Source: Yersinia kristensenii
GTDB lineage: Bacteria; Pseudomonadota; Gammaproteobacteria; Enterobacterales; Enterobacteriaceae
Reading direction: 5' to 3'
DNA: 64,000 bases
Assembly: GCF_900460525.1 (NCBI RefSeq)
Contig: NZ_UHIY01000001.1
Span: 3,410,001 to 3,474,000, forward strand
A program made the translations under genes and the position numbers. Below the pieces are notes generated by a model, which was not told where the DNA came from, searched no databases, and saw only the letters and a list, made by a program, of their open reading frames with translations. Within the stretch, counting starts at the first letter, position 1. The number at the start of each line of letters is the position of its first letter. Below are positions 14,123-27,178 of the stretch, one piece after another.

Positions 14123-14197
14123 ACCTAATGTAATGGTAGGCGTATTTAGCAATCTCAATCAGGCCTGACGAACTCTGTTTAATAAGATGGTCTTATC

Positions 14198-14233
14198 CAC
14201 CCTGTGAGCAGCACGCGAGCAGGGTGTTTTTCT
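14198..14233 (+). terminator. mipA terminator
   Basis: CACCCTG at 14198-14204 pairs with CAGGGTG at 14220-14226, followed by TTTTTC. It lies just after mipA and before the end of the convergent papI-like gene. Confidence 0.8.
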
Positions 14234-14267
14234 TTCTAAAGGGGTATTGTCATACAAAGCATAATGC

Positions 14268-14492
14268 TCACCGATGCTGACCTCGGCAAGTAGATGCCGT
14301 TCGCTGGCTTGACCACCTGACTTTCCCTCCCTGTCCCGTCGTTTTCATCAAAACTGTTCCCTTTCGGTGCTCTTTTAGCAAGTGGTAGCGCGCCTGGTAT
14401 ATCGAGATGTTTAGTGCTTGTGCTATTTCTGCTGTAGTTAAATCATTATGTGTGTAAAGAAGTTCACTAATTCTTTTCGCATAACTAACCAT
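14268..14492 (-). CDS. PapI/FaeA-like phase-variation regulator
   Basis: 74 residues. The central segment LTTAEIAQALNISIYQARYH is a winged-helix HTH with the pattern of PapI, FaeA and PefI (TAEIAxAL...YQARYxLLxL). A good ribosome site (GAGGAG) precedes the start. PapI-type proteins do not act alone: they increase Lrp affinity for GATC-containing sites and thereby switch fimbrial operons. The gene is divergent from the fimbrial operon, as papI is from papBA, with 941 bp between. The last 15 residues are unlike PapI, so the C-terminus may have diverged. No papB-like gene was found. Confidence 0.8.
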   Translation of the reverse strand: MVSYAKRISELLYTHNDLTTAEIAQALNISIYQARYHLLKEHRKGTVLMKTTGQGGKVRWSSQRTASTCRGQHR

Positions 14493-15084
14493 TCTATTCT
14501 CCTCAAAAAATATATTTAATTAATAATTAGCGGGCTGTTAAAAAAACAGAGTTATATGAAATGTTTTTAGATTAAATTTTCTTGATGTGGGGAATATTAA
14601 GATAAATCTCAAAATTAAAGATCTAACTCATAACCATATGAGAAAACTAAAGCAAACAAACATAAATAATTGTTTGTATTGTATTTTTATGTAAAACCCC
14701 TTGCGATTAATATTAGTGAGTTTGTTTGTTCTCATAAAAAATCTCAACCATGAAAAGCACAAGAAAACCATAGTGAATTGGATTTATACAAAAGGATAAA
14801 TATCATTTAATCATTGGCTTGAATATGTATTCGTTTATTTTGTGTAAATATATAATTAACTTTAACATGCCTTGTTTTCTATAATTTTACTTTTCATGAT
14901 TGCACTTTTTCTTAATTTAATGCCTCTCGATAAATAATTAAAATCTGAATCATATCAATTATGTAAATAGTGCTGACATTGTCATGTTTGTAACTCGTTA
15001 TTTATTAATGTCTTTTGTTTCATTTACACAATATCTTATTTTGCGTGATAAAAAAAATTATTTTTCTATTTTATTTGTAGTTGA

Positions 15085-15094
15085 CGATCTTTTA
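15085..15094 (+). promoter_or_regulatory. GATC box 1 (Dam/Lrp/PapI-type site)
   Basis: CGATCTTTTA followed by TG, within GACGATCTTTTATG. It includes the ACGATC hexamer reported as the PapI-dependent recognition sequence in pap. The GATC at 15086 is 103 bp from the second box, close to the 102-bp spacing known from pap-type operons. Confidence 0.7.
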
Positions 15095-15183
15095 TGTTGC
15101 TAACCAATGCCAGATGTAGTTCTTTGTTCTTATATTTTATTTGTTTTTGGTTTTTAATAGTGTATTTTTGATATGATTTGGTT

Positions 15184-15193
15184 TAAAAGATCG
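15184..15193 (-). promoter_or_regulatory. GATC box 2, inverted orientation
   Basis: TAAAAGATCG on the plus strand, which is CGATCTTTTA on the minus strand. It faces box 1. The preceding base gives TCGATC rather than ACGATC. Together the boxes have the inverted arrangement of the GATC-proximal and GATC-distal sites in pap, sfa and daa. Confidence 0.7.
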
Positions 15194-15433
15194 ATTTATG
15201 GGCTTTTAATGGTATAAAAATTCATATAGGATTCACGCATAAGGTTTTGGCAGGTAATTTTTATATGCGCTCAAGTTCATTTTATGAAAATAAGATTCAT
15301 GTGTTTTTTTATGTAAAAAGCAAAGTTTACTGATATGGCTATCTTTATTTCCCTTGGTTTTTGTTATGGAGGGAAATAAGGCCAGCCATGCTGGAAAATG
15401 TTATTAACCAACTAATCTAATAGGGTTATTCAC

Positions 15434-15961
15434 ATGAAAAAGAGTATTGTATCTTCCGTTATTGCATTGGGTGTAATGGCTGGTTCAGCGGCCCATGCGG
15501 CACCTCTTGATGTGACATTCACTGGTGGGGTAACCGCTAAAACCTGTGATATATCAGTTGATTCTCCTAATGCTATGGGCAATAACATTGAGTTGGGTGT
15601 TGTTGGGAAAGGTGTGACAGGGCCGGCGGTGAGTTTTGCACTGAAAGCGGCTAATGCAGCTGGTGGTGATTGCGCTAATTTGACTGCTCAGGATACCGCC
15701 CAGGTGAGATGGTTCTCTCCGAAAATGGATGCATTGGGCTTGGGGATGACCTCTGGTGAAGCAAACGATTCTAGAGTCTTGCTGACTGCTGTGAATACTA
15801 AGAGCGCTAACCCGGTATCTATTAATAACTCGAATGATACCGCTGAATTTGAGGCCAACAAAGTCGTTAACGATGGTCTTAAGTTTGAAGCCAAACTGCA
15901 AGGTGGTCAGACTCCGGGTCGATTCCAGAGTGTAGCTAAAGTCGATATTCTTTATAAATAA
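15434..15961 (+). CDS. major fimbrial subunit (chaperone-usher pilin)
   Basis: 175 residues with a signal peptide ending SAAHA. The mature protein begins APLDVTFTGGVTAKTCD and ends GRFQSVAKVDILYK, with the two cysteines (KTCDIS and GDCANL) and the penultimate tyrosine typical of donor-strand-exchange pilins. The start ATG at 15434 follows an AGGGTTATT segment. Overall pattern (usher gene before chaperone, PapI-like regulator, ending GLKFEAKLQGGQTPG) resembles K99/Pef-type fimbriae more than type 1. First gene of the operon and followed by an attenuator, as expected for the most abundant subunit. Confidence 0.88.
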   Translation: MKKSIVSSVIALGVMAGSAAHAAPLDVTFTGGVTAKTCDISVDSPNAMGNNIELGVVGKGVTGPAVSFALKAANAAGGDCANLTAQDTAQVRWFSPKMDALGLGMTSGEANDSRVLLTAVNTKSANPVSINNSNDTAEFEANKVVNDGLKFEAKLQGGQTPGRFQSVAKVDILYK

Positions 15962-15994
15962 TCATTTATCAGCAGACACAACCTTTATTTAAAC

Positions 15995-16020
15995 AAAGGG
16001 GTGGCCACACCCCTTTTATA
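15995..16020 (+). terminator. intercistronic attenuator between pilin and usher genes
   Basis: A 9-bp perfect stem AAAGGGGTG / CACCCCTTT with loop GCCA, followed by TTATA. It lies 33 bp after the pilin stop and 50 bp before the usher start, so partial termination would give excess pilin mRNA. Confidence 0.8.
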
Positions 16021-16070
16021 TAACTTTATTAAATTTTCTTATTTCGTTTAATCGAAATGGAGGGTGAATT

Positions 16071-18479
16071 GTGTTATTGCGCCCACGGATATTTAAATTA
16101 TCAGTATTGAGTCTGGCATTATTCTCACATTTTTCTTCGGCGTCTTCTGATTCGGATCTTAATCTTGATTTTTTGCAAGGTACCAGTGTTATACCCTCTA
16201 TATTAAAAACGGCTTCACTTTATCCTGCTGGCCAATATTATGTTGATGTTATTGTCAATAAAGAAAATATCGGCAAGGCGCAATTAAATATTTCCCCTGA
16301 AGAGGATAAAGCTAATATTTTATGTTTGTCAGCGGCATGGTTAAAAACCGCGGGTGTCCCCGTTCGCCTGGATAGTTATGTATCTGAACTGAACGCATCA
16401 AAACAGTGTTATGAACTGAGTAAAAACCCGTATACCCGAGTGGACTTTGACTATGGCAGCCAAAGTCTGGTCTTTAGTATTCCCCAATCTTATCTCATCA
16501 GTAAAACCGACCCCAGCCAGTGGGACTATGGGGTGAGTGCTGCACGCCTAAAATATTCCGGTAACTTTTTCCAGTCATCCGGACAAAAAAACAGTGCGTT
16601 TGCCAACACTGACCTGATAGTCAACTTGGGGCGTTGGGTGCTGGGTAGCAATATGAATGCTACCAAAAACAGCAATGGCTCCAGTGAGTTTGCAGCGAGT
16701 GATATTACGTTATCGACAGCTGTCAGTCAGATTCAAGGGGATTTGTTGCTGGGAAAATCCCAGACACGCAGCTTGCTATTCAGTGATTTTGGTTTTTATG
16801 GCGCATCACTGCGCTCCAACAGCAATATGACACCGTGGGAGTTGCGCGGGTATGCCCCACTGATCACGGGAGTCGCCAGTTCCACCTCCCGTATCACTAT
16901 TACCCAGAGTGGTTATACAGTGTATTCAAAAGTGGTTCCGCCAGGCCCTTACCAACTGGATGACGTCCGCCCGGTGGGGAACGGTGACCTGGAAGTGACG
17001 GTCGAAGATGCCGACGGTCAGAAAACCACTACCCTCTATCCGATCACCACGCTGCCGACCCTGCTGCGTCCGGGGGAATTGGAGTACAACATGGCTGCGG
17101 GGCGTAAAACCAGCAGCAGCAATATTAAAGATGCTTTTTCCTCCGGTGAGAATGGTCTTTTCTGGCTGGGAAGTTTGGGATATGGCTTTTCCGGCACGAC
17201 ATTCAATGCCTCCTCAATTATGCACAATAAATATCAGGCCGGTGGCCTGAGTCTGACGCAGTCTTTGGGGGCATTTGGGGCTTTCTCGGTCGGGGGAAAT
17301 CTGGCACAAGCGCGTTATGACAACGGGGTGAAAAAGAACGGTCATAGTGCGAGTGCCAAGTATGCCAAGAGTTTTTCTAACGACACTGACCTACAGTTAT
17401 TGGCCTACCGCTATCAAAGCAAGGGATATGTCGAGTTTGCCGATTTCTATACCACCGATCGCTATGCCCGTAACGACAAAAAAGCGCGTTATGAGATGCG
17501 TTTTTCGCAGCGTATGGGGGATATCAACCTGAGCCTGTCTGGCTGGCGAGAGAACTATTGGTGGTTGAATGGTAATGCCACTGGGGGAGATATCTCACTC
17601 AGCAGCCGGTTATTTACGGATGTCTCGATGTTTCTGCGCGGCAGCTATAACAAACAACCCTATCTGGAGAAGCCTGATTACAGCACCTCCATCTCCTTTA
17701 GTGTGCCGTTCAATCTGGGAGGGGTACGCCATTACAGCAATACGGGGGTGAACTATAGCCGCCATAACAAAATGGGCATGACCGCAGGGGTATCCGCCAA
17801 CCCGACAGACCGCTTCAGTTACGGCCTGAGTACCTCATTGAGTGAAAAAGGAAACCGAAATTTGAGCGGTAATATGTCTTATGGATTCGATGCCATACAG
17901 ACTCGTCTGATGTTGACGCGGGGCCGCCACCAAACCAGCGTATCGGGCAGTGTGAGCGGCACCGTGCTGGCAACACCGGAGAGTGGTGTGCTGTTGACTA
18001 AAGAACAGGGAAATACCCTGGGAGTGGTTCGGATACCGAATGTGGCAGGTGTGCGCTTTAACCGCTCAACGCCGACCAACAGTAAGGGCTACACGGTGGT
18101 CAACCTGTCGGACTACGCACTCAATCGCATTAATGTTGACATGGAGAACGTGCCGGATGATTTAGAGCTTCAAACCACCTCTTACAACGTGGTGCCGACC
18201 GAGAAAGCCGTGGTCTATCGCCATTTCGGCGCAAACTATGTGCAACGTTACATCCTGCGAGTAAAAGATAGCAACGGCAAGGTTCTTGATGGGGGCAGTG
18301 CGCGCACGGAACAGGGGTTGGATGCAGGGTTTATTGCCAATAACGGAGTATTGCTGATGAGCATGCTGAGCACACCGAAGTGGGTGAAAATTACGTTAGA
18401 CGAGGGGAAAACCTGCCGTTTTTCAATGACTGGAATAGTGGCTGATGCCAATAAGGTTCAGGAGGTACGTTGTGAATAA
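16071..18479 (+). CDS. fimbrial outer membrane usher
   Basis: 802 residues, normal for ushers of the FimD/PapC/FaeD superfamily. A signal peptide (about 1-25) is followed by the N-terminal chaperone-binding domain (NLDFLQGTSVIPSILK), the 24-strand barrel with the plug domain in the middle, and a C-terminal domain with the usual cysteine pair (KTCRFS and VRCE). The signature PPGPYQLDDVRPVGNGDLEV is clear. The GTG start at 16071 has GGAGGG 6 bp before it. The gene is third-party neutral in base composition compared with the AT-rich upstream region. It overlaps the chaperone start by 8 bases, which suggests translational coupling. Confidence 0.93.
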   Translation: MLLRPRIFKLSVLSLALFSHFSSASSDSDLNLDFLQGTSVIPSILKTASLYPAGQYYVDVIVNKENIGKAQLNISPEEDKANILCLSAAWLKTAGVPVRLDSYVSELNASKQCYELSKNPYTRVDFDYGSQSLVFSIPQSYLISKTDPSQWDYGVSAARLKYSGNFFQSSGQKNSAFANTDLIVNLGRWVLGSNMNATKNSNGSSEFAASDITLSTAVSQIQGDLLLGKSQTRSLLFSDFGFYGASLRSNSNMTPWELRGYAPLITGVASSTSRITITQSGYTVYSKVVPPGPYQLDDVRPVGNGDLEVTVEDADGQKTTTLYPITTLPTLLRPGELEYNMAAGRKTSSSNIKDAFSSGENGLFWLGSLGYGFSGTTFNASSIMHNKYQAGGLSLTQSLGAFGAFSVGGNLAQARYDNGVKKNGHSASAKYAKSFSNDTDLQLLAYRYQSKGYVEFADFYTTDRYARNDKKARYEMRFSQRMGDINLSLSGWRENYWWLNGNATGGDISLSSRLFTDVSMFLRGSYNKQPYLEKPDYSTSISFSVPFNLGGVRHYSNTGVNYSRHNKMGMTAGVSANPTDRFSYGLSTSLSEKGNRNLSGNMSYGFDAIQTRLMLTRGRHQTSVSGSVSGTVLATPESGVLLTKEQGNTLGVVRIPNVAGVRFNRSTPTNSKGYTVVNLSDYALNRINVDMENVPDDLELQTTSYNVVPTEKAVVYRHFGANYVQRYILRVKDSNGKVLDGGSARTEQGLDAGFIANNGVLLMSMLSTPKWVKITLDEGKTCRFSMTGIVADANKVQEVRCE

Positions 18480-19164
18480 GGTCATGAAGTGGGGGATGAT
18501 TTCCCTACTGTCTATGTTTGTCTGTGGCCATGCTATGGCGGCTTTTGTTCTGAACGGGACACGTTTTATCTATGAAGAGGGCAAGAGAAACCTCTCCTTT
18601 GAGGTAACCAACCAAGCAGAGGAAACCTTTGGTGGTCAGGTCTGGGTGGATAATACCAATCAGGGAAATGACGTGTACATGGTTCCGGCCCCGCCATTCT
18701 TCAAAGTGGCTGCCAATCAGAAGCAGATAGTGCGGGTTATTAAGACGGGGAGCGGGTTGCCGACGAACCGGGAATCATTGTTCTGGCTGAATGTACAAGA
18801 AATCCCCCCGAAGCCGAAGGCGGAAGACGGTAACGTGCTGGCGGTAGCGGTGAACACCAAGGTGAAGCTGATTTATCGCCCCAAATCCCTTGTGGAGGGG
18901 CGCAAAGGGGCTGAAAAGAATATCTCGCTGGTTAAAAAAGACGGAGTGACTTACCTGAGTAATCCGACACCGTATTACTTTGCTGTCATCGGGATGAAAG
19001 TAAATGGTCAGGCGGTCAAATTGAGTTCTGCCGAGCAGAATGCTCTGGCTCAAATGGCGCCGTTTGGCGTGGTTTCGGTCGGTAAGCATGCCTTGAATGG
19101 CACGGTGATGATTGAAGCTGTCAATGATTGGGGCGGTGTAGATAGCTACACGCTGAAGGGTTAG
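18472..19164 (+). CDS. periplasmic fimbrial chaperone (PapD family)
   Basis: About 230 residues from a GTG at 18472, which has GGAGG about 6 bp upstream and overlaps the usher stop. The signal peptide ends at AMA. The mature protein has the conserved arginine in LNGTRFIYEEG (position 8-9) and the lysine in VKLIYRP that together clamp the pilin C-terminus. It has a short F1-G1 region (VIKTGSGLPTNRESLFWLNV), so it belongs to the FGS class that assembles rod-type fimbriae. The order usher-then-chaperone is as in pap, K99 and pef operons. Confidence 0.93.
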   Translation: MNKVMKWGMISLLSMFVCGHAMAAFVLNGTRFIYEEGKRNLSFEVTNQAEETFGGQVWVDNTNQGNDVYMVPAPPFFKVAANQKQIVRVIKTGSGLPTNRESLFWLNVQEIPPKPKAEDGNVLAVAVNTKVKLIYRPKSLVEGRKGAEKNISLVKKDGVTYLSNPTPYYFAVIGMKVNGQAVKLSSAEQNALAQMAPFGVVSVGKHALNGTVMIEAVNDWGGVDSYTLKG

Positions 19165-19185
19165 AAGTACAACAAATGAGGAGCA

Positions 19186-19728
19186 ATGATGATGCATAAC
19201 ATTAAGCGATATGCAGGCGTGAGCTTACTCTTCCTTAGCATGGCATTGTTGCCCAAAGCAGAGGCCGCGGCAACAGACACGGCAACGATACAGGTGACAT
19301 TAATAAATAATCAGCACACCTGTTTGTTGGAGGTCAATGGAGGCGATGTCACCGGAGGGAACTATAACTTGGGATTGATAAGCACCGGGCAGGTATCACA
19401 TCGGCCGTTTACGTTGGACATTAAATGTCAGGGGAATACACCGGTCAAGACCGCGCTGACCGCCAAGAATTTGAACGGCACCCTGGTGGCGGGTAATGAC
19501 AAAATGGTGATGCCGGTTAATGGCAACCAGGCGAGTTCGGGGCCGTTGCTGTGGCTGGATAACAATGGAAAGAGTGTGATGCTGACGGGGAATGAGGCGG
19601 ATGCGTTCTGTGTACAGACCGGGATAAACAACAGTTGTAGTTTGTCGCCGGTCACCGAGGTGAGGGCGTCAGACCCGCTGGGTCAGATAAGTGCGACGAT
19701 TCGCTTTGAAGTGGTGTATCCGGCCTGA
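19186..19728 (+). CDS. minor fimbrial subunit
   Basis: 180 residues with a signal peptide ending AEAA. The mature part shows a pilin fold pattern: cysteine in NQHTCLLEV, second cysteine in DIKCQGN, and a C-terminal strand ISATIRFEVVYPA with the penultimate aromatic. Two additional cysteines (AFCVQT, NSCSLS) may form a second disulphide. It starts at the first of three consecutive ATG/ATG/ATG codons after TGAGGAG. It follows the chaperone gene by 21 bp. Possible roles are adaptor, initiator or terminator subunit; the sequence does not decide. Confidence 0.82.
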   Translation: MMMHNIKRYAGVSLLFLSMALLPKAEAAATDTATIQVTLINNQHTCLLEVNGGDVTGGNYNLGLISTGQVSHRPFTLDIKCQGNTPVKTALTAKNLNGTLVAGNDKMVMPVNGNQASSGPLLWLDNNGKSVMLTGNEADAFCVQTGINNSCSLSPVTEVRASDPLGQISATIRFEVVYPA

Positions 19729-19774
19729 ATCTAAAAAGAACTCGATGAATAATTTTGTAATATGAGGTCACGCG

Positions 19775-20668
19775 ATGTGGAAAACAATGGTAATCGCGCT
19801 GTTGGTGTTATTTAGAATAACAACCGGGCACGCGGGAATAATAACCTTGGAGAATGAAAACAGGGAGATGGCGTCCGTACGGGTTGTGCTCAGTACCTAT
19901 ATTGGTGCTGATGATAGCAAAATAGGTGAGGTTATTACTAATGTTGGGGTGGTTAGCAGTTACCGCAGTAAAGAGTACGCGTATATTACCGAACACGCCA
20001 CAAACCCAGCATATCAGTGTGAACTGGCGGAGGGGCAGCCCGGTAAGTATAGCAGTGGGGACTATACGTATCCGAATGGCTATAAGTATCCGAATGATAT
20101 CAGACTGCAAGTGAGGAAACTACAAGCAGGATACGCAGGGGAGGCGACATGTACCGCTGAAGTGGTCACTATGGCACCATACAACGAGAACTGGGGCTAT
20201 ACGAACTATTATGTCTATAACACTATAACGGCACCGTCAGCATATGGGCCTAGCTTCGCCACGCTACTGCCGTCCGGTGTAAAAGTTACGCTTCCCAAGG
20301 CGTGGCAGATGCAAGGCTATCCTGGTTATTGGTGGCATGCCTGGAACGATAAGAGTAATACCTTTCGCAAAGCGGTTAAGTGGTCTGCAACCTACGATGA
20401 TCAAATTCAGCACGATGTATCAGAAAGTCATCCCTATGTTCCCATCCTGACCGTTACCGATGACAGTGACGTATGGGCGTATGTGGCTATTATCCCCAAA
20501 GATGTCGATGCCGGCTTTACTGCGGCGGTAAATTTCAGGATGAAGGATGGCAGACCTTGCGATAGAGGGATGGGTGCAGGGGATCAATGCTTAATGTATG
20601 TCAATAAAGACAAGCTGAAACCGGGGGTGACTAAAGGTTTGGTTGTACTCAATGTTCAGCTCCCCTGA
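19775..20668 (+). CDS. putative fimbrial adhesin or tip subunit, paralogue 1
   Basis: 297 residues with a signal peptide cut after GHA. Four cysteines (YQCEL, EATCTAE, RPCDRG, DQCLMY) fit two disulphides. The C-terminal third contains the block SESHPYVPILTVTDDS and ends LVVLNVQLP. The whole protein is paralogous to the product at 21382-22227. No named family was recognised, but signal peptide, operon position at the 3' end and a pilin-like last strand suggest an exported tip adhesin. GAGG lies 7 bp before the start. Confidence 0.65.
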   Translation: MWKTMVIALLVLFRITTGHAGIITLENENREMASVRVVLSTYIGADDSKIGEVITNVGVVSSYRSKEYAYITEHATNPAYQCELAEGQPGKYSSGDYTYPNGYKYPNDIRLQVRKLQAGYAGEATCTAEVVTMAPYNENWGYTNYYVYNTITAPSAYGPSFATLLPSGVKVTLPKAWQMQGYPGYWWHAWNDKSNTFRKAVKWSATYDDQIQHDVSESHPYVPILTVTDDSDVWAYVAIIPKDVDAGFTAAVNFRMKDGRPCDRGMGAGDQCLMYVNKDKLKPGVTKGLVVLNVQLP

Positions 20669-20734
20669 AAGCGCAATGGCCGCGGTTGTAAAGGCGGCGA
20701 CATGGTTCCAGGCCAACAAGCCGAGGGAACAATA

Positions 20735-21373
20735 ATGTACCCGATAATAACATTATATGGCGCATGTGATTACGAATACATCGGGTTATGTCATGTCATG
20801 GATGACATGGGCCTGTCTTATCGCCGTTATCACTGTGAACGCCCGCTTGAGCCAGATGATATTTTGGTCATGTGCTGGAGCGATAAGCCCGCATTGGGGT
20901 GGGGAGCGCGCTATCTTGACGAGCTGCATACGCTTTTGTCGCATTATAAGTGCGGCATTATTGTATTGCACCCTTTTCGCGTCCCTGCTGCGGTTATTAC
21001 GCATCCGCGCCTGCGCATGATAGATGGTCACGGATATAAGCGGGGACTACGGGCATTGCGAAAACTGATAAAAGACAGCATCGTTGCGTTGAGTGAGTGT
21101 CAGCGCACGGCTAGCGTAGCGGTTACTCCTGAATCGGTGACACGTATCGGGGTGGCATACGAGAGTATGATGAGCGACTGTGGGGTGACAAAGTACGCGA
21201 GGGAAAGGGAAGCCTGCATCAAAACGATACACAACCGGCGGCGCGCCTTGATTCGATGGTATGGGTTTTCCAGTGTGCATGAGTTTCGGTTGGTTATGCT
21301 CCCCTCAGGACGAGAGGGACACTCGCAGGGGGATACCGGGAACCAGCCAGAATCTACTGATTTGATAGTGTGA
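20735..21373 (+). CDS. LuxR/BglJ-like transcriptional regulator inside the fimbrial operon
   Basis: About 212 residues from the ATG at 20735, which has GAGGGAA 6 bp upstream; the frame is open from 20702. There is no signal peptide. The N-terminal half is a receiver-like alpha/beta segment without obvious phosphorylation aspartate. The C-terminal part KTIHNRRRALIRWYGFSSVH looks like the recognition helix and following helix of a LuxR-type HTH (compare KTVSTHKRSAMRKLG). It probably is an auxiliary regulator like those found in other fimbrial loci. The gene lies between two adhesin paralogues, and its stop is 9 bp from the next start. Confidence 0.6.
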   Translation: MYPIITLYGACDYEYIGLCHVMDDMGLSYRRYHCERPLEPDDILVMCWSDKPALGWGARYLDELHTLLSHYKCGIIVLHPFRVPAAVITHPRLRMIDGHGYKRGLRALRKLIKDSIVALSECQRTASVAVTPESVTRIGVAYESMMSDCGVTKYAREREACIKTIHNRRRALIRWYGFSSVHEFRLVMLPSGREGHSQGDTGNQPESTDLIV

Positions 21374-21381
21374 GGTCAACG

Positions 21382-22227
21382 ATGATGACGATGACGTGGA
21401 AAACTGTGCTAATCGTGCTGCTGGTGCCACTCAGAGTAACAACGGGATACGCCGGGATAATAACCCTGCATGGAGACGAAAGTGGACGGGTGGCGATAGC
21501 TCAGTTCTTACTCAGTACACATATTGGCGCGGATAGCAGTAAAGTCGGTGAGGTCATGACCGATGCTATCGCGTATGGCAGTGTGGATAACATTGTGTCC
21601 GGGCAGATTATTCAGGGCGCTACAAACTCAGCATATCAGTGCGAAATAGTGAACGGCAGTTATGGCCATCGAGAAGTCATCCTGAAAGTGAAAAAATTAC
21701 AAGAAGGTTACGCGGGGGAGGCTATATGTGTCGCCCAAGTGAGACTTCAGGCAACGCCACAATACCCCAACGCCTATGCAAACCTTTATGTTTATAACAC
21801 CATCACCGCCAATAAGTCTGCATATGGCCCCAGTTACGCCACGTTAATACCCTATGGTAAAAAGGTCGAACTCCCCCGATCTTGGAATGCGTCGTCTGGA
21901 TGGGATGATAGTTACTATTTCCTTAGAGGGGGGGGTAACAAGTGGTCTGCAACCTACAATGAGCAAATCCAGCACCTGGTATCAGAAAGTCATCCCTATG
22001 TTCCGATTCTAACCGTTACGGATGACAGTAGTACCTGGGCGTTTGTGGCTGCCACCACCAAAGATGTTGATGCGGGGTTTACTACGGCAGTCCGCATTAC
22101 GAGGATGGGGGGGGGACCTTGCTCTTGGATAAACGCGGGTGAGCAATGCTTCATGTATGTCGACAAAGACAAACTAAGGTCTGGGGAGACCAAAGGGCAA
22201 ATTGTACTTAATATTCGGTTACCCTGA
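21382..22227 (+). CDS. putative fimbrial adhesin or tip subunit, paralogue 2
   Basis: About 281 residues from the ATG at 21382 (ATGs at 21385 and 21391 also possible; a GTG at 21370 overlaps the previous stop). Signal peptide ends at GYA. It shares with the protein at 19775 the start GIITL, the four cysteines at equivalent places, YVYNTITA, KWSATY, IQHxVSESHPYVPILTVTDD and the terminal strand. Divergence is concentrated in the middle, as expected for a receptor-binding surface. Function is inferred from context only. Confidence 0.65.
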   Translation: MMTMTWKTVLIVLLVPLRVTTGYAGIITLHGDESGRVAIAQFLLSTHIGADSSKVGEVMTDAIAYGSVDNIVSGQIIQGATNSAYQCEIVNGSYGHREVILKVKKLQEGYAGEAICVAQVRLQATPQYPNAYANLYVYNTITANKSAYGPSYATLIPYGKKVELPRSWNASSGWDDSYYFLRGGGNKWSATYNEQIQHLVSESHPYVPILTVTDDSSTWAFVAATTKDVDAGFTTAVRITRMGGGPCSWINAGEQCFMYVDKDKLRSGETKGQIVLNIRLP

Positions 22228-22306
22228 TGCGTAATGGGGCGAAGCTATTGTTGTGTGGATAAACTACGGCCAAACCGTAGTAAGAAATCAATAAAGGTAC
22301 ATTTAT

Positions 22307-22411
22307 ATGGATTATGATTCTTATTTTACTTTGGAGCTATCCCGGTTTCTCTGGGCTGTCATAAGTAGTGTTTTTATTTCTATATTAATCTATTTGATTA
22401 TTCGAAAATAA
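22307..22411 (+). CDS. possible 34-residue single-helix membrane peptide
   Basis: ATG at 22307 with AAAGG about 9 bp upstream, stop TAA at 22409-22411. The peptide begins MDYDSYFTLELSRFLW, continues as one hydrophobic helix (AVISSVFISILIYLII) and ends RK. This is a negative-outside, positive-inside single-pass layout. It follows a 7-bp hairpin (ACTACGG / CCGTAGT at 22263-22281). No family was recognised; it could be a real small protein of the fimbrial locus or chance. Confidence 0.35.
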   Translation: MDYDSYFTLELSRFLWAVISSVFISILIYLIIRK

Positions 22412-22644
22412 AGAACTAAAAAATATCACCATATTAATGGAAAGTTATTTAATATATTTCCCGTTATCAAAATGTATCGTGAAACTCATCCTTTAGCTTG
22501 AGGTGTAATTAACTGTCACTGGCTGTCGTTGGTAATCTGGTTTTATTAAGGTTATATGTTTGTAATATCAATTTCTTCCCGTTGACTCCTATTGTAAATA
22601 TTGATTAATATTTGTGATTTTACTAATAGTAATGGATTGTAACT

Positions 22645-23301
22645 ATGGAAAAAACAACTCATATGGGCGCAAAGGTCTACACTCCACTGACGCTAAAATT
22701 GTACGATTGGTGGGTCTTGGGTCTTTCTAATCAATTCGCTTGGCGGTGCCCAACAAAAGAAGTTCTATTGCCCCATTTCCAAAAGTATGTGGGTAAAGAA
22801 CATTTAGATATTGGGGTGGGTACTGGTTTTTATCTAACTCACTTACCTCAAGGTTCGTTCGTATCTCTCATGGATGTCAATATCAGCAGCTTAAATGCGG
22901 CAAGCAACCGAGTTGGGGTGGGACGAGTTAAAGATTGCATCCAGCATGATGTATTCAACCCTTTCCCTAAAAAATTTCATGATAAATTCGATTCTATCTC
23001 TATGTTCTATCTTTTGCATTGTTTACCGGGAACATTGACAGAAAAATCACAAGCAATAGCTAACGCCAGAGATGCCTTAAATGCAAATGGCACACTGTAC
23101 GGTGCAACAATTTTGGGTGAAGAAGCTAATCATAATTGTTTCGGCAAAAAACTGATGGACGTGTACAACGCGAAAGGGATTTTTTCTAATAAGTCAGATA
23201 GCAAAAATACATTACAGGCCATACTCTCAACCTATTTTTATCATGTTGAGATCATGCAGATTGGGAAAGTTGCTCTCTTTTGTGCCCAAAATAAAATTTA
23301 A
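22645..23301 (+). CDS. class I SAM-dependent methyltransferase
   Basis: 218 residues. Motif I is LDIGVGTGFYLTHLP near residue 52, followed by MDVNISSLNAA for the acidic residue that holds the ribose and YLLHCLPG in the motif IV position. This is a small-molecule type methyltransferase of cytoplasmic location. The substrate is unknown. Base composition is more AT-rich than the backbone, and it stands alone between the fimbrial operon and the enhancin gene. The ribosome site is weak. An imperfect CCCCC/GGGGG hairpin follows the stop. Confidence 0.8.
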   Translation: MEKTTHMGAKVYTPLTLKLYDWWVLGLSNQFAWRCPTKEVLLPHFQKYVGKEHLDIGVGTGFYLTHLPQGSFVSLMDVNISSLNAASNRVGVGRVKDCIQHDVFNPFPKKFHDKFDSISMFYLLHCLPGTLTEKSQAIANARDALNANGTLYGATILGEEANHNCFGKKLMDVYNAKGIFSNKSDSKNTLQAILSTYFYHVEIMQIGKVALFCAQNKI

Positions 23302-23345
23302 TAAATCCCCCTCAAACCTTGCTCAATGCGGGGGGTAATGTTAAT

Positions 23346-23378
23346 TAGAGATTGTATTGTGAGTAAATACAATCTCTA
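23346..23378. repeat. 13-bp perfect hairpin after the methyltransferase gene
   Basis: TAGAGATTGTATT (23346-23358) and AATACAATCTCTA (23366-23378) with a 7-base loop. There is no strong T-run, so it may be a weak terminator or a transcribed structure. Confidence 0.6.
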
Positions 23379-23545
23379 TTGATTATGCTCGACTGACTCA
23401 AACTTGTTAAAAGATGAAGTTAACTATTTTAAAGACCATATTAATGGTTCGTACAATATTTACTCGAAATAAAAAGCAATAAGACAATGACAATAAGGAA
23501 GTTTAACGGCAAAAAACTCATTAAAGTGAGGCGGGAAGAGAGGGG

Positions 23546-23698
23546 GTGAACCCTCTATTATTATTGGTAAAAGCTGTGGTGCTCGGTACTTATTCCGAAG
23601 ATGTCCCAGCGCTGGTCTACCTGACATCGGGTGTTATCGTCAGCTACCGACACTACCAGACTTACCCGCGTAGTCACGCTAACACCACAATCGGCTGA
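23546..23698 (+). CDS. possible 50-codon ORF or gene remnant
   Basis: GTG at 23546 preceded by GAGAGG, stop TGA at 23696-23698. The translation includes VVLGTYSEDVPALVYLTSG and VIVSYRHYQTYPR, which looks more protein-like than the surrounding junk, but no family was recognised. It could be the tail of a decayed gene left from an insertion. Confidence 0.25.
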   Translation: MNPLLLLVKAVVLGTYSEDVPALVYLTSGVIVSYRHYQTYPRSHANTTIG

Positions 23699-23785
23699 GC
23701 CATCAACCATGGCTCGGAGAGGTATTAAGCATCATTAAATACCACGGCAATGGCTCATGCGATTGTGCATATCATTTCATTATCA

Positions 23786-23869
23786 CAATTGGCATAGGTA
23801 CTGGAATACGGTTGCATATCTACACGGAGCCACTTTTACTTTTATGCATCCCCAATACCTATGCAATTG
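23786..23869. repeat. imperfect inverted repeat, about 18 bp arms
   Basis: CAATTGGCATAGGTACTGG at 23786-23804 and CCAATACCTATGCAATTG at 23852-23869 pair with one bulge and one mismatch. This resembles the ends of a small mobile element remnant; no transposase is present. Confidence 0.45.
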
Positions 23870-23933
23870 TGCAACACCTCAAACGCTTTAGGTTATCCCA
23901 TCTATCTATCACTGAATGATGTGTTGAATTAAT

Positions 23934-24009
23934 TGGCGAGGGTCAGCGGGAATCAAACCCGCATTATCAGCTTTGAAAACGGAAGTAATATCCATTATAC
24001 GATAACCGC
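23934..24009 (-). pseudogene. degenerate tRNA-Gly relic, anticodon position reads UCA
   Basis: On the minus strand the sequence runs GCGGTTATCGTATAATGG, then ATATTAC, and later GCTGATAATGCGGG, TTTGATT, CCCGC and ends GCCA. This matches the body of enterobacterial tRNA-Gly(UCC) (glyT) position by position with about 15 changes. The acceptor stem has a C-C clash and an extra base, the anticodon stem has a C-T clash, the T loop has lost its C56, and the anticodon is UCA in place of UCC. It is therefore very probably a pseudogene or a foreign tRNA remnant. Confidence 0.7.
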
Positions 24010-24510
24010 TTTCAGTGAATAATGATTTTAAAAGCACGACAGATTTTTTCAAGATCCGAAGCAAAAAATCAGACAAAGTGAATTTTTCGGCGTGCATAGT
24101 TTTGGAAACACTAAAATCAGCATATTTGATGTGGTTATTAATATTAAAAGTAAACATTCATTTTATAACGTACTACAAATAGACTTTTTTCCATCCTGAC
24201 CAAAACATGAATCTTTCGAGATACACGTTAAAAATCCATCCATAGGATTAAGAAAGGTAATAAGAAAAATACAAGTAGATAATAAATAATGCATATTCAC
24301 ACATTAAGTGATAATGCTCTTATTTAAAGTGAAGAGTCTATTCCAATTTATCAATTATGGTAAAGGTATTAATTATATATAAAGTACAACATGGATTTCA
24401 ACTGGGGTTTTTATGTGTAAATATCACTAATGACTTATATGCGATATTTTAATATATAACTGATGTAATTTAAAATATTTAATCATACCATCCTAATGAG
24501 GGTTTTATTT
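24010..24510. other. AT-rich leader region before the enhancin gene
   Basis: About 500 bp of low-GC sequence. No ORF of substance, no clear promoter motif. The stretch 24280-24480 is extremely AT-rich, as expected for an H-NS-silenced horizontally acquired gene. Confidence 0.5.
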
Positions 24511-27066
24511 ATGGGGCAAATAACAAAATCAAAAAAACTTAAATTTCTACCTTACCCAGAATGGTTAGTTAAGGCTGGAATGTCAAAAGGTATTGATCAT
24601 GATAGACAACATCTAGGCATTATTCTTGCTGCCGGAGAAATTATCCGAGTCCGACAAGTCAATATGGAATTTAAAGGAGGACTTAAATTACGCTTACTTA
24701 ATGATAATCAAAAAACACAGACTTCGATAAATTTTAATTTTGATTGGATAGAGTTGAGTGTTGATGCTGTTTCAGTACCCTTTATTAATACCCCATATAG
24801 TGATGAGATTATACCTGAAATTGTTTTTGAATACCCGGACACATCTAAATTACTGCCTGTTTATGAAAGAGGGGATGACGAGCGAATATTTTTTGAAAGT
24901 TGGGATGAACAAGATGCTGAGTTTGGCGTAGTAGAATCAGAATATGTAATAATTTTGGCACCGAAAGCCAGTAAGGACAGACTAAAATCTTTCAGTACGA
25001 GTGGAGGGATTGATAAAATATTAGAATTTTATCAAGGCATTCTTGCTTTCAATAACTCTCTGGCAGGTCTGTCTTTTGAACCGCAAAGATATTCTGACGA
25101 AAATACACGGAATCGTTATTTTGCTAAAGCAGATAAAGGAGGTGGTGGGGCAGCATATTATTCTAATAATTGGGTCGCGTCATCCTCTGGTTCCATAAAT
25201 ACATTTTGGCTATCCCCCAATTCAACTAATTGGGGCTGCTTGCATGAAATCGCGCATGGTTATCAGGGCGGATTTATTGATGACAAATATTTTTCTACAA
25301 GAGAAGTCTGGAATAATATTTATGCTGCCTGCTACCAAGATGTTATGTTAGGAACTGAAAAGTTCAATAAAGGATGGTTATATAACTTCGGCAAACAAAA
25401 AGAGGTTGAAAAAGGTATTTTAAATAACATTAGTAATGGTAGGAAAGTCAACTCTTGGGAACCGCGGAGTAAATTATATTTTATCATGCTGATGCTAGAG
25501 AAAGCAGGAGTAAATTGTTTTACTTATTTCAATCAGATATATCGTGAACGCAAAAATCTCGATAAAAGCGTACCCTCAGTGTTAGATATGCTCTCAAACA
25601 GCTTTGCAACTGTTGAAAATCGAGTTGATGTTACACCATTTATACAAATAGTTGGTGGACATATATCTCAAGAACAATATCAACGTAACTTATTTAGCCA
25701 TGCAAAGGCAGTGTATCCACTAAATAAAATATTGCAAGGTGATGAATTAAGTTTTGTTAAAAAAACACTAAACTTGAATAGCGAACTCAGTCTTGTTGAT
25801 GTAGATAATCTTGAGTTTACAGATATAAAAATCAATATGACATTGCAGTTTTCCATAGATGATTTTACTCAGATCTATGGCGAAGAATTGCTTATACTCA
25901 ATGGTGATAACTATGTGTATAATCAATCTATTATGGATAAAGAACAAACTATATATGATCTTCCCATTGGTGCTTATACATTACGCATCCCTACAGGAAG
26001 AAATAAAAAGTATGCACCTCAAAATAATTATTTGATAGCAAACAATGAAGATAGTCCAAAAAATATAGATTTTGTTCACAGAATAGGTTCCTCAATTGCT
26101 TCCCAGACAATTTCTTTACGAGGGTTAAATGATTCTACATTTGCAACTATATTTATTGATCAGGAAAATGCTACGGTTATCGTTGATATTACTAAGGAAA
26201 AGCCACATTATCATTTCCCTGGTATGTATGCGGGAATAATAATAAAAGATAAAGATAATAATGACTTAATTAATGAAGTGATTACCGGTACTAATCAATC
26301 GTTAAGTAAAAATACACTTCCACTGTCTTCTTGTTATTATATTGAGGTCTTTCACAAAGAGCCTGGTAGAATAAAGTTAATTCCGGAATGTAAAGGTGTG
26401 ATTGATAATAAATCGTCTACCAATACGTTTATTATAACGCCTTATGGTTTGCAAAATATAAAGTTGAATAACGATCCGAAAGTTTTTTTATTAGACAGTA
26501 TAAATTCTGCAGTAGAGGCACTGCGTAGTCAGCCGATAATGTGGCATGCCAATTTTTCAGAAGCTAAAGATAATATATATTTAGCAATCGATATTTTCCC
26601 TAGCCCACGAAAGGAAGCCTTACTTGAACAGTATTCTGATTGTATTTCTCCCTACTATGAAAAGCCTAATGAAGACTTGGGTAATAGATTTAGCTTTGTC
26701 TTTAAAGGAATTAATGACCGGATTTTTTTGAGCGCTGAACTTAATTTAGTGACAAAAAAACTTGAAGTGAAACTTATGAGTGGTACTGCCCATAGTGGGT
26801 TCAACAGGACATACGCTGTACTACGTTATTTTGATGCGGATGGTAATGAACTGCTTAATCTGGAGGTTATTGGCAGTAAAAAACAGATGAGAAAAACGTG
26901 GGAGTTTCCTATATCAGGTTATGGTGGAGAAAAACTCTATCTTCAACATGAGGAACCGAAAAGTAGATTAGTAGTGACTAATATTATGCAAGAGATAAGA
27001 TTATCATCGCGTCAAAAAACACAAAACTATGAAATAGAATCTTTAGGATTAAGTCATGACACTTAG
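24511..27066 (+). CDS. enhancin-like M60 family zinc metalloprotease
   Basis: 851 residues from the ATG at 24511, which has GAGGG 8 bp upstream; an earlier ATG at 24496 overlaps that ribosome site. The catalytic motif HEIAHGYQ followed 15 residues later by glutamate (FSTREVWNNIYA) is the HExxH-x(8,28)-E gluzincin signature of peptidase M60, which includes baculovirus enhancins and bacterial mucinases. No signal peptide is visible. The N-terminal third holds the protease, the rest is beta-rich and probably carbohydrate or host binding. Base composition is about 35% GC, far below the backbone. Yersinia genomes are known to carry enhancin homologues. Substrate is inferred as mucin-like glycoprotein. 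Confidence 0.85.
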   Translation: MGQITKSKKLKFLPYPEWLVKAGMSKGIDHDRQHLGIILAAGEIIRVRQVNMEFKGGLKLRLLNDNQKTQTSINFNFDWIELSVDAVSVPFINTPYSDEIIPEIVFEYPDTSKLLPVYERGDDERIFFESWDEQDAEFGVVESEYVIILAPKASKDRLKSFSTSGGIDKILEFYQGILAFNNSLAGLSFEPQRYSDENTRNRYFAKADKGGGGAAYYSNNWVASSSGSINTFWLSPNSTNWGCLHEIAHGYQGGFIDDKYFSTREVWNNIYAACYQDVMLGTEKFNKGWLYNFGKQKEVEKGILNNISNGRKVNSWEPRSKLYFIMLMLEKAGVNCFTYFNQIYRERKNLDKSVPSVLDMLSNSFATVENRVDVTPFIQIVGGHISQEQYQRNLFSHAKAVYPLNKILQGDELSFVKKTLNLNSELSLVDVDNLEFTDIKINMTLQFSIDDFTQIYGEELLILNGDNYVYNQSIMDKEQTIYDLPIGAYTLRIPTGRNKKYAPQNNYLIANNEDSPKNIDFVHRIGSSIASQTISLRGLNDSTFATIFIDQENATVIVDITKEKPHYHFPGMYAGIIIKDKDNNDLINEVITGTNQSLSKNTLPLSSCYYIEVFHKEPGRIKLIPECKGVIDNKSSTNTFIITPYGLQNIKLNNDPKVFLLDSINSAVEALRSQPIMWHANFSEAKDNIYLAIDIFPSPRKEALLEQYSDCISPYYEKPNEDLGNRFSFVFKGINDRIFLSAELNLVTKKLEVKLMSGTAHSGFNRTYAVLRYFDADGNELLNLEVIGSKKQMRKTWEFPISGYGGEKLYLQHEEPKSRLVVTNIMQEIRLSSRQKTQNYEIESLGLSHDT

Positions 27067-27178
27067 CCCTGAAAGTCGGCGATTCCTATCAGTTCAAAAT
27101 CCCAGTCAGAGGACCAGGACTTTGTTAATGCTATGAATGGGGCATAAAGCCCCATTTTTGTATCTGCGGTACATGCTG

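Follow-up and report, generated by a model that had tools for sequence, protein, structure and literature searches.

Among the described fimbrial systems, pap and the Salmonella operons pef and std bear most closely on the locus reported here. In pap, the two switch sites are named GATC1028 and GATC1130 (PMC13076061), the intergenic region is given in one source as 416 bp with six Lrp sites (PMC9820224), and PapB is described as feeding back on PapI (PMC10073500). The pef region encodes a PapI homologue, PefI, which one report presents as a repressor (PMC12388093) and another as acting jointly with SrgD to repress flagellar genes (PMC3224193); std is a Dam-dependent fimbrial switch that uses HdfR and receives feedback from the operon-encoded StdE/StdF (PMC8160106).

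We analysed a 64-kb stretch of the Yersinia kristensenii genome, here called the window, in which an initial annotation had proposed a Pap-type epigenetic switch upstream of a fimbrial operon. That annotation was right on the parts and, very probably, on the mechanism: the boxes, their inversion and spacing, the divergent PapI-family gene, the presence of dam and lrp, and conservation in Yersinia similis all support such a reading. By its sequence, the locus is a combination of a Pap-type box pair and PapI-family gene with a Pef-type operon and leader, and has no PapB. We consider it likely that the Pef-type fimbriae are here under the control of a Pap-type Lrp/Dam/PapI epigenetic switch, a function that we infer from the DNA.

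The control region and its box pair

The region between the papI-like and pilin genes (14493-15433) is 941 bp long and 74% A+T; the regulator gene and the features of this region are:

14268-14492, minus strand: papI/faeA-like regulator gene, 74 aa (Pfam FaeA 37.7 bits, cut-off 20.7)
15085-15094, plus strand: distal box CGATCTTTTA, GATC at 15086-15089, preceded by GA, as in pap
15184-15193, minus strand: proximal box CGATCTTTTA, inverted, GATC at 15189-15192, reading TCGATC
15203-15243, plus strand: conserved block on the downstream side of the proximal box, where the pilin promoter is presumed to lie
15334-15390, plus strand: hairpin in the pilin mRNA leader, its sequence and fold common to Y. 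similis and Salmonella pefA

The two boxed GATC sites start at 15086 and 15189, 103 bp apart, within inverted boxes, as the initial annotation had read them; these are the only two exact copies of CGATCTTTTA in the 64-kb window, against a chance expectation of 0.13, and none of 100 shuffles of the window matched that number. Inverted CGATCTTTT boxes containing GATC, placed upstream of the operon at a spacing of about 102 bp, together with a divergent PapI-family gene, are what the locus shares with pap. The annotation had credited pap, sfa and daa with the same boxes at this spacing; for pap, four E. coli plasmid pap-type loci (L079, L080, L081 and L083) have GATC spacings of 102, 102, 102 and 101 bp. 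At 16 of 17 bases, the window's distal box agrees with that of L080. ACGATC, the form that PapI prefers, is present in the distal box only (GACGATC), again in agreement with the annotation, and the proximal box, read on its own strand, has TCGATC, a difference from pap. Three GATC sites occur in the intergenic region (14620, 15086 and 15189), and the one at 14620 has no equivalent at the aligned Y. similis position.

When regions were simulated with a first-order Markov model of the 941-bp intergenic sequence, some pair of GATC sites 101-104 bp apart arose in 1,004 of 100,000 (about 1%), and the inverted 9-base boxes in 0 of 100,000 (analytic estimate about 4e-8). The inverted CGATCTTTTA pair itself occurs once in the 4.73-Mb genome, exactly between the papI-like and pilin genes; a chance resemblance was rejected on the shuffles, the uniqueness in the genome and the simulations. 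A looser box pattern was found in 3 of 394 Enterobacterales genomes, the window genome included, and its reversed control in 4 of 394; the matches in the two other genomes lie inside open reading frames of 443 and 420 aa, and the bare pattern was rejected as a genome-wide marker. Since the reversed control is as frequent as the pattern, the pair takes its meaning from its place and not from the pattern alone.

The divergent gene, the only FaeA/PapI-family member in the window genome, passes the Pfam FaeA cut-off, in accordance with its earlier naming as PapI/FaeA-like; against the PDB, its product gives E=3e-6 with PapI (2htj) and the weaker E=0.093 with PefI (2jt1). Residues 1-61 are 80% identical to the Y. 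similis copy, with a dN/dS of 0.18 over these 61 codons that indicates purifying selection, and an alignment of eight relatives has ten invariant columns, among them the YQA of the putative recognition helix. DNA similarity to Y. similis stops at 14308, within the 3' end of the gene, and the last codons (14268-14307) differ, as would be the case if the block common to both had its left boundary inside the papI-like gene; a terminator-like hairpin overlaps the stop codon. An lrp gene over the cut-off is present in the genome, as are two dam-family genes over the cut-off (C1:1213847-1214638 and C1:4292040-4292828).

Several features set the region apart from pap. The annotation had noted the lack of a papB-like gene, and this holds genome-wide: the PapB family (PF03333) has no match in the whole genome at E<=0.001, and the first gene of the operon is not a PapB-family regulator. 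PapB is usual in pap and in the related operons compared here, and we do not take it to define the Lrp/Dam/PapI mechanism; its absence does bar the name 'a pap operon'. The intergenic region is, as the annotation also stated, longer than that of pap (941 bp, where two pap loci have 422 and 415 bp), and the start of the papI-like gene lies 594 bp from the distal GATC, versus about 205-212 bp in L081 and L080; because of this distance, the papI-like gene may not share the switch. Whereas the distal GATC of two pap loci has a 9/10 match to the CRP consensus at a distance of exactly 60 bp, a consensus scan of the window found no pap-type site at that distance, the best match (7/10) lying elsewhere. 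The departures from pap listed by the annotation thus stand, and the list was incomplete, lacking the missing CRP site, the Pef-type leader hairpin and the regulator-like gene of the operon. The promoter scan gave no sigma-70 promoter after the proximal box (5 sites in total, versus 8.9 expected from shuffles), and -10 matches in the block at 15203-15243 are weak, for which reasons the pilin promoter is presumed only.

The operon, its leader and its regulator-like gene

Downstream of the control region lie the following genes:

15434-15961, plus strand: major pilin, PefA-like (NCBIfam PefA 155.7 bits, below the cut-off of 227)
16071-18479, plus strand: usher, PefC/AfrB family (1133 bits, cut-off 752)
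18445-19164, plus strand: fimbrial chaperone (NF011758 367.6 bits, cut-off 248)
19186-19728, plus strand: putative minor subunit (tblastn 45% to the gene after pefD in a Salmonella pef locus)
19775-20668, plus strand: putative tip protein 1 (66% to Y. similis)
20735-21373, plus strand: 212-aa regulator-like protein (FixJ/CsgD-like fold, weak prediction)
21370-22227, plus strand: putative tip protein 2, related to tip protein 1

The label 'Yersinia-type' given to this operon in the annotation is better replaced by Pef-type (PefC/AfrB), since the usher and the matching chaperone both exceed the cut-offs of their models; the pilin falls below the PefA cut-off and is accordingly called PefA-like, not PefA. 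Among the matches listed (40 of 665 plasmid records), the usher is at most 72% identical to Salmonella PefC. The putative minor subunit and tip protein 1 have no Pfam match. Two related putative tip proteins flank the gene for the 212-aa protein, where Y. similis has one.

Pef-type structural genes are one more difference from pap. The chaperone and pilin are 69% and 45% identical to those of a Salmonella pef locus (L132), which likewise has a leader hairpin before its pilin gene and a box pair at 102 bp. In pef, pefB separates the switch from the pilin gene and pefI closes the operon, whereas the window has no PapB-family gene and its PapI-like gene is divergent; the L132 box reads GCGATC, while the distal box of the window has the pap form ACGATC. 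In a further pef locus, L126, the pair is 113 bp apart and the second box is altered. Escherichia plasmid PefC-type operons (L084, L085 and L087) resemble the window in having a divergent PapI-like gene, boxes 103-104 bp apart and an usher 58% identical to that of the window over the part compared; they differ in an annotated regulator gene in the PapB position (PapB/FocB in L085) and in a further AAAAGATCG box 31 bp downstream. Three other PefC-type plasmid operons (L128, L130 and L131) were rejected as carriers of the switch, the upstream stretches scanned containing no such pair. Boxes in L084, L085, L087 and L132 and none in the stretches of L128, L130 and L131 mean that the module is carried by only some PefC-type operons.

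Folding of the full 221-nt pilin leader is only mildly more stable than that of shuffled sequences (z -1.80; 9 of 200 shuffles equally stable). Short leader stretches, picked after the fold was seen and each forming one long hairpin, gave z values of -4.57 in the window, -4.64 in Y. similis and -4.81 in Salmonella, with 0 of 200 shuffles as stable. Of the 20 pairs of the main stem, two are kept with changes on both sides and one is broken in Salmonella, and we regard the conservation of the hairpin across these three sequences as suggestive. At E<=1, a plasmid search with the intergenic region returned 347 records, of which 326 are from Salmonella, and among the matches listed (20 of the 347) eight cover window positions 15368-15401; the leader alone matched 11 Salmonella records at E<=0.01. 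In Salmonella L126 the leader match stops 57 bp upstream of the pefA start. The hairpin has no match in Rfam up to E=1, and its core pattern occurs in the window genome only among the 392 genomes of its GTDB family. Control of pef mRNA by CsrA is a possibility.

The 212-aa protein matches no Pfam family at E<=10 and has no meaningful PDB sequence match. Its structural model, of low confidence (pLDDT 57.3), has its closest structural matches among full-length response regulators (StyR, E=2.8e-4; FixJ, E=5.7e-4), with the CsgD domain further down the ranking; given the lack of Pfam and PDB matches and the low-confidence model, we treat this fold match as a lead. Relatives are found in 203 plasmid records, at about 25% identity among the matches listed (20 of the 203), and at the three plasmid loci examined they end chaperone-usher operons, beside DsbA-family and PapI-family genes, the latter annotated in two of the loci and revealed by a tblastn search of the third. 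The remaining 393 genomes of the Enterobacterales sample, to which Y. similis does not belong, contain no relative.

Copies in Yersinia and the insertion site

Y. similis belongs to the Y. pseudotuberculosis complex. Among 25 Yersinia genomes, an usher more than 50% identical to that of the window was found only in the window genome itself, in Y. similis (89%) and in genome G021 (51%). Gene order in Y. similis is the same (papI, pilin, usher, chaperone, minor subunit, tip protein, regulator), with one tip protein and not two; its boxes lie 102 bp apart, its proximal box also reads TCGATC, and the distance from the proximal GATC to the pilin ATG is 247 bp, against 245 bp in the window. The intergenic regions as a whole are 61% identical. 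In 40-bp blocks, identity falls to 35-47% between 14573 and 14852; the distal box has 93%, the part starting with the proximal box 75-82% (82% at 15213-15252) and the leader 97%. The 20-mers centred on the boxes rank 105th and 169th of 922 in conservation, that is, they are conserved without being the peak. E. coli DNA relatives of the intergenic region were also considered and rejected: 2 of 5,426 genomes gave a 24-bp match at E=1.

Matches to the FaeA family at E<=0.001 occur in 10 of the 25 Yersinia genomes; beyond that of the window and the two of Y. similis, they have E values of 4e-5 or worse and mostly belong to open reading frames at least about 100 aa long. Y. similis has a second PapI-family gene (L121, 5385-5588, plus strand), a stronger match with no chaperone-usher operon in its 13-kb stretch; as that stretch contains no CGATCTTTT, we rejected it as another switch. 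We likewise rejected the second PefC-like usher locus of the window genome (L028) and the usher locus of G021 (L005, the 51% relative), neither stretch having a CGATCTTTTA box; in G021 an AraC-type gene follows the operon. Among the titles and abstract openings listed from the openly licensed PMC literature, none describes a Pap-type switch from Yersinia.

The operon lies within an insertion:

14123-27135, no strand assigned: 13-kb insertion holding the operon, between mipA and yeaD

We found mipA in 24 of the 25 Yersinia genomes and compared the 23 loci other than that of the window. The site is empty in 19 of these 23, with the yeaD side within about 210 bp of mipA; among the remaining four, the gap is about 940 bp in one, and in three the stretch compared contains no match to the yeaD side. 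In Y. similis the mipA/yeaD site is empty (18 bp, L105), and the operon occupies another chromosomal site, beside rha-like genes (named by eye). MipA of the window shares 83% identity with its Y. similis counterpart and 97% with that of the nearest genome in the Yersinia set, which places the window genome probably outside the Y. pseudotuberculosis complex. No tRNA gene of the window lies near the insertion, all of them being at 41.6-41.9 kb. The insertion carries at its right end (24496-27066, plus strand) a gene for a Peptidase M60 (enhancin-like) protein with mucin-binding domains, 85% identical to one that adjoins the same operon in Y. similis.

The proposed switch and competing readings

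On the model of pap, Lrp and the PapI-like protein would bind the boxes in competition with Dam and yield ON and OFF cells. In OFF cells, Lrp would occupy the surroundings of the proximal GATC (15189), near the presumed pilin promoter; in ON cells, Lrp and the PapI-like protein would be found around the distal GATC (15086), and the promoter could fire. Dam would methylate whichever GATC is unoccupied, making the state heritable until replication reopens the choice, and the prediction is that 15086 is unmethylated and 15189 methylated in ON cells and the reverse in OFF cells. At any one time, then, probably only part of the cells would make the fibres. With PapB and a pap-type CRP site both missing, PapB-type feedback is either absent or replaced. 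The locus resembles std in being a putative Dam-dependent fimbrial switch with operon-encoded regulators and differs from it in that std uses HdfR instead of Lrp/PapI; by analogy with StdE/StdF, the FixJ-like protein of the operon is the best candidate for a replacement of PapB, a speculative assignment. A fuller account, which we advance tentatively and hold to be possible but doubtful, is that a Pap switch lacking PapB and CRP input moved between Yersinia chromosomes in an island, with feedback through the FixJ/CsgD-like regulator of the operon and a second, post-transcriptional layer at the Pef-type pilin-leader hairpin. On that account, the Lrp/Dam/PapI box pair would be a bistable module sufficient in itself, one that recombination has joined to different fimbriae and feedback genes.

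Control could instead be of the pef kind, Lrp and Dam acting through the boxes and the PapI-like protein serving as a repressor, as PefI is reported to be (PMC12388093), with a polarity or heterogeneity unlike that of pap. The Pef-like structural genes and leader fit this view, as does a proximal box other than ACGATC, but the regulator gene is divergent as in pap, unlike the operon-end pefI of L132, its product is closer to PapI than to PefI, and the distal box is of the pap form and not the GCGATC form of L132; we consider such control unlikely. The region might also be a relic, under Lrp or H-NS control and with no heritable ON/OFF states, whose switch decayed on losing PapB and CRP input. 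A long, A+T-rich intergenic region with no clear promoter, no PapB and no pap-type CRP site would suit decay, yet Y. similis keeps the boxes and their spacing amid heavy divergence and the papI-like gene is under purifying selection, which makes a relic very unlikely. That the box pair is without meaning has a negligible probability: GATC pairs at about this spacing do turn up in some 1% of simulated regions, and the loose pattern is no more frequent than its reversed control, but the full inverted pair was absent from all simulations, stands once in the genome, between the papI-like and pilin genes, and is kept in Y. similis.

If the Pap-type reading preferred here is true, it would extend a textbook epigenetic switch to Yersinia and provide a natural version without PapB, in which one could ask whether Lrp, Dam and PapI suffice for bistability and what PapB adds; and with two Yersinia copies at different sites in diverged surroundings, conservation would mark the parts that the switch needs.
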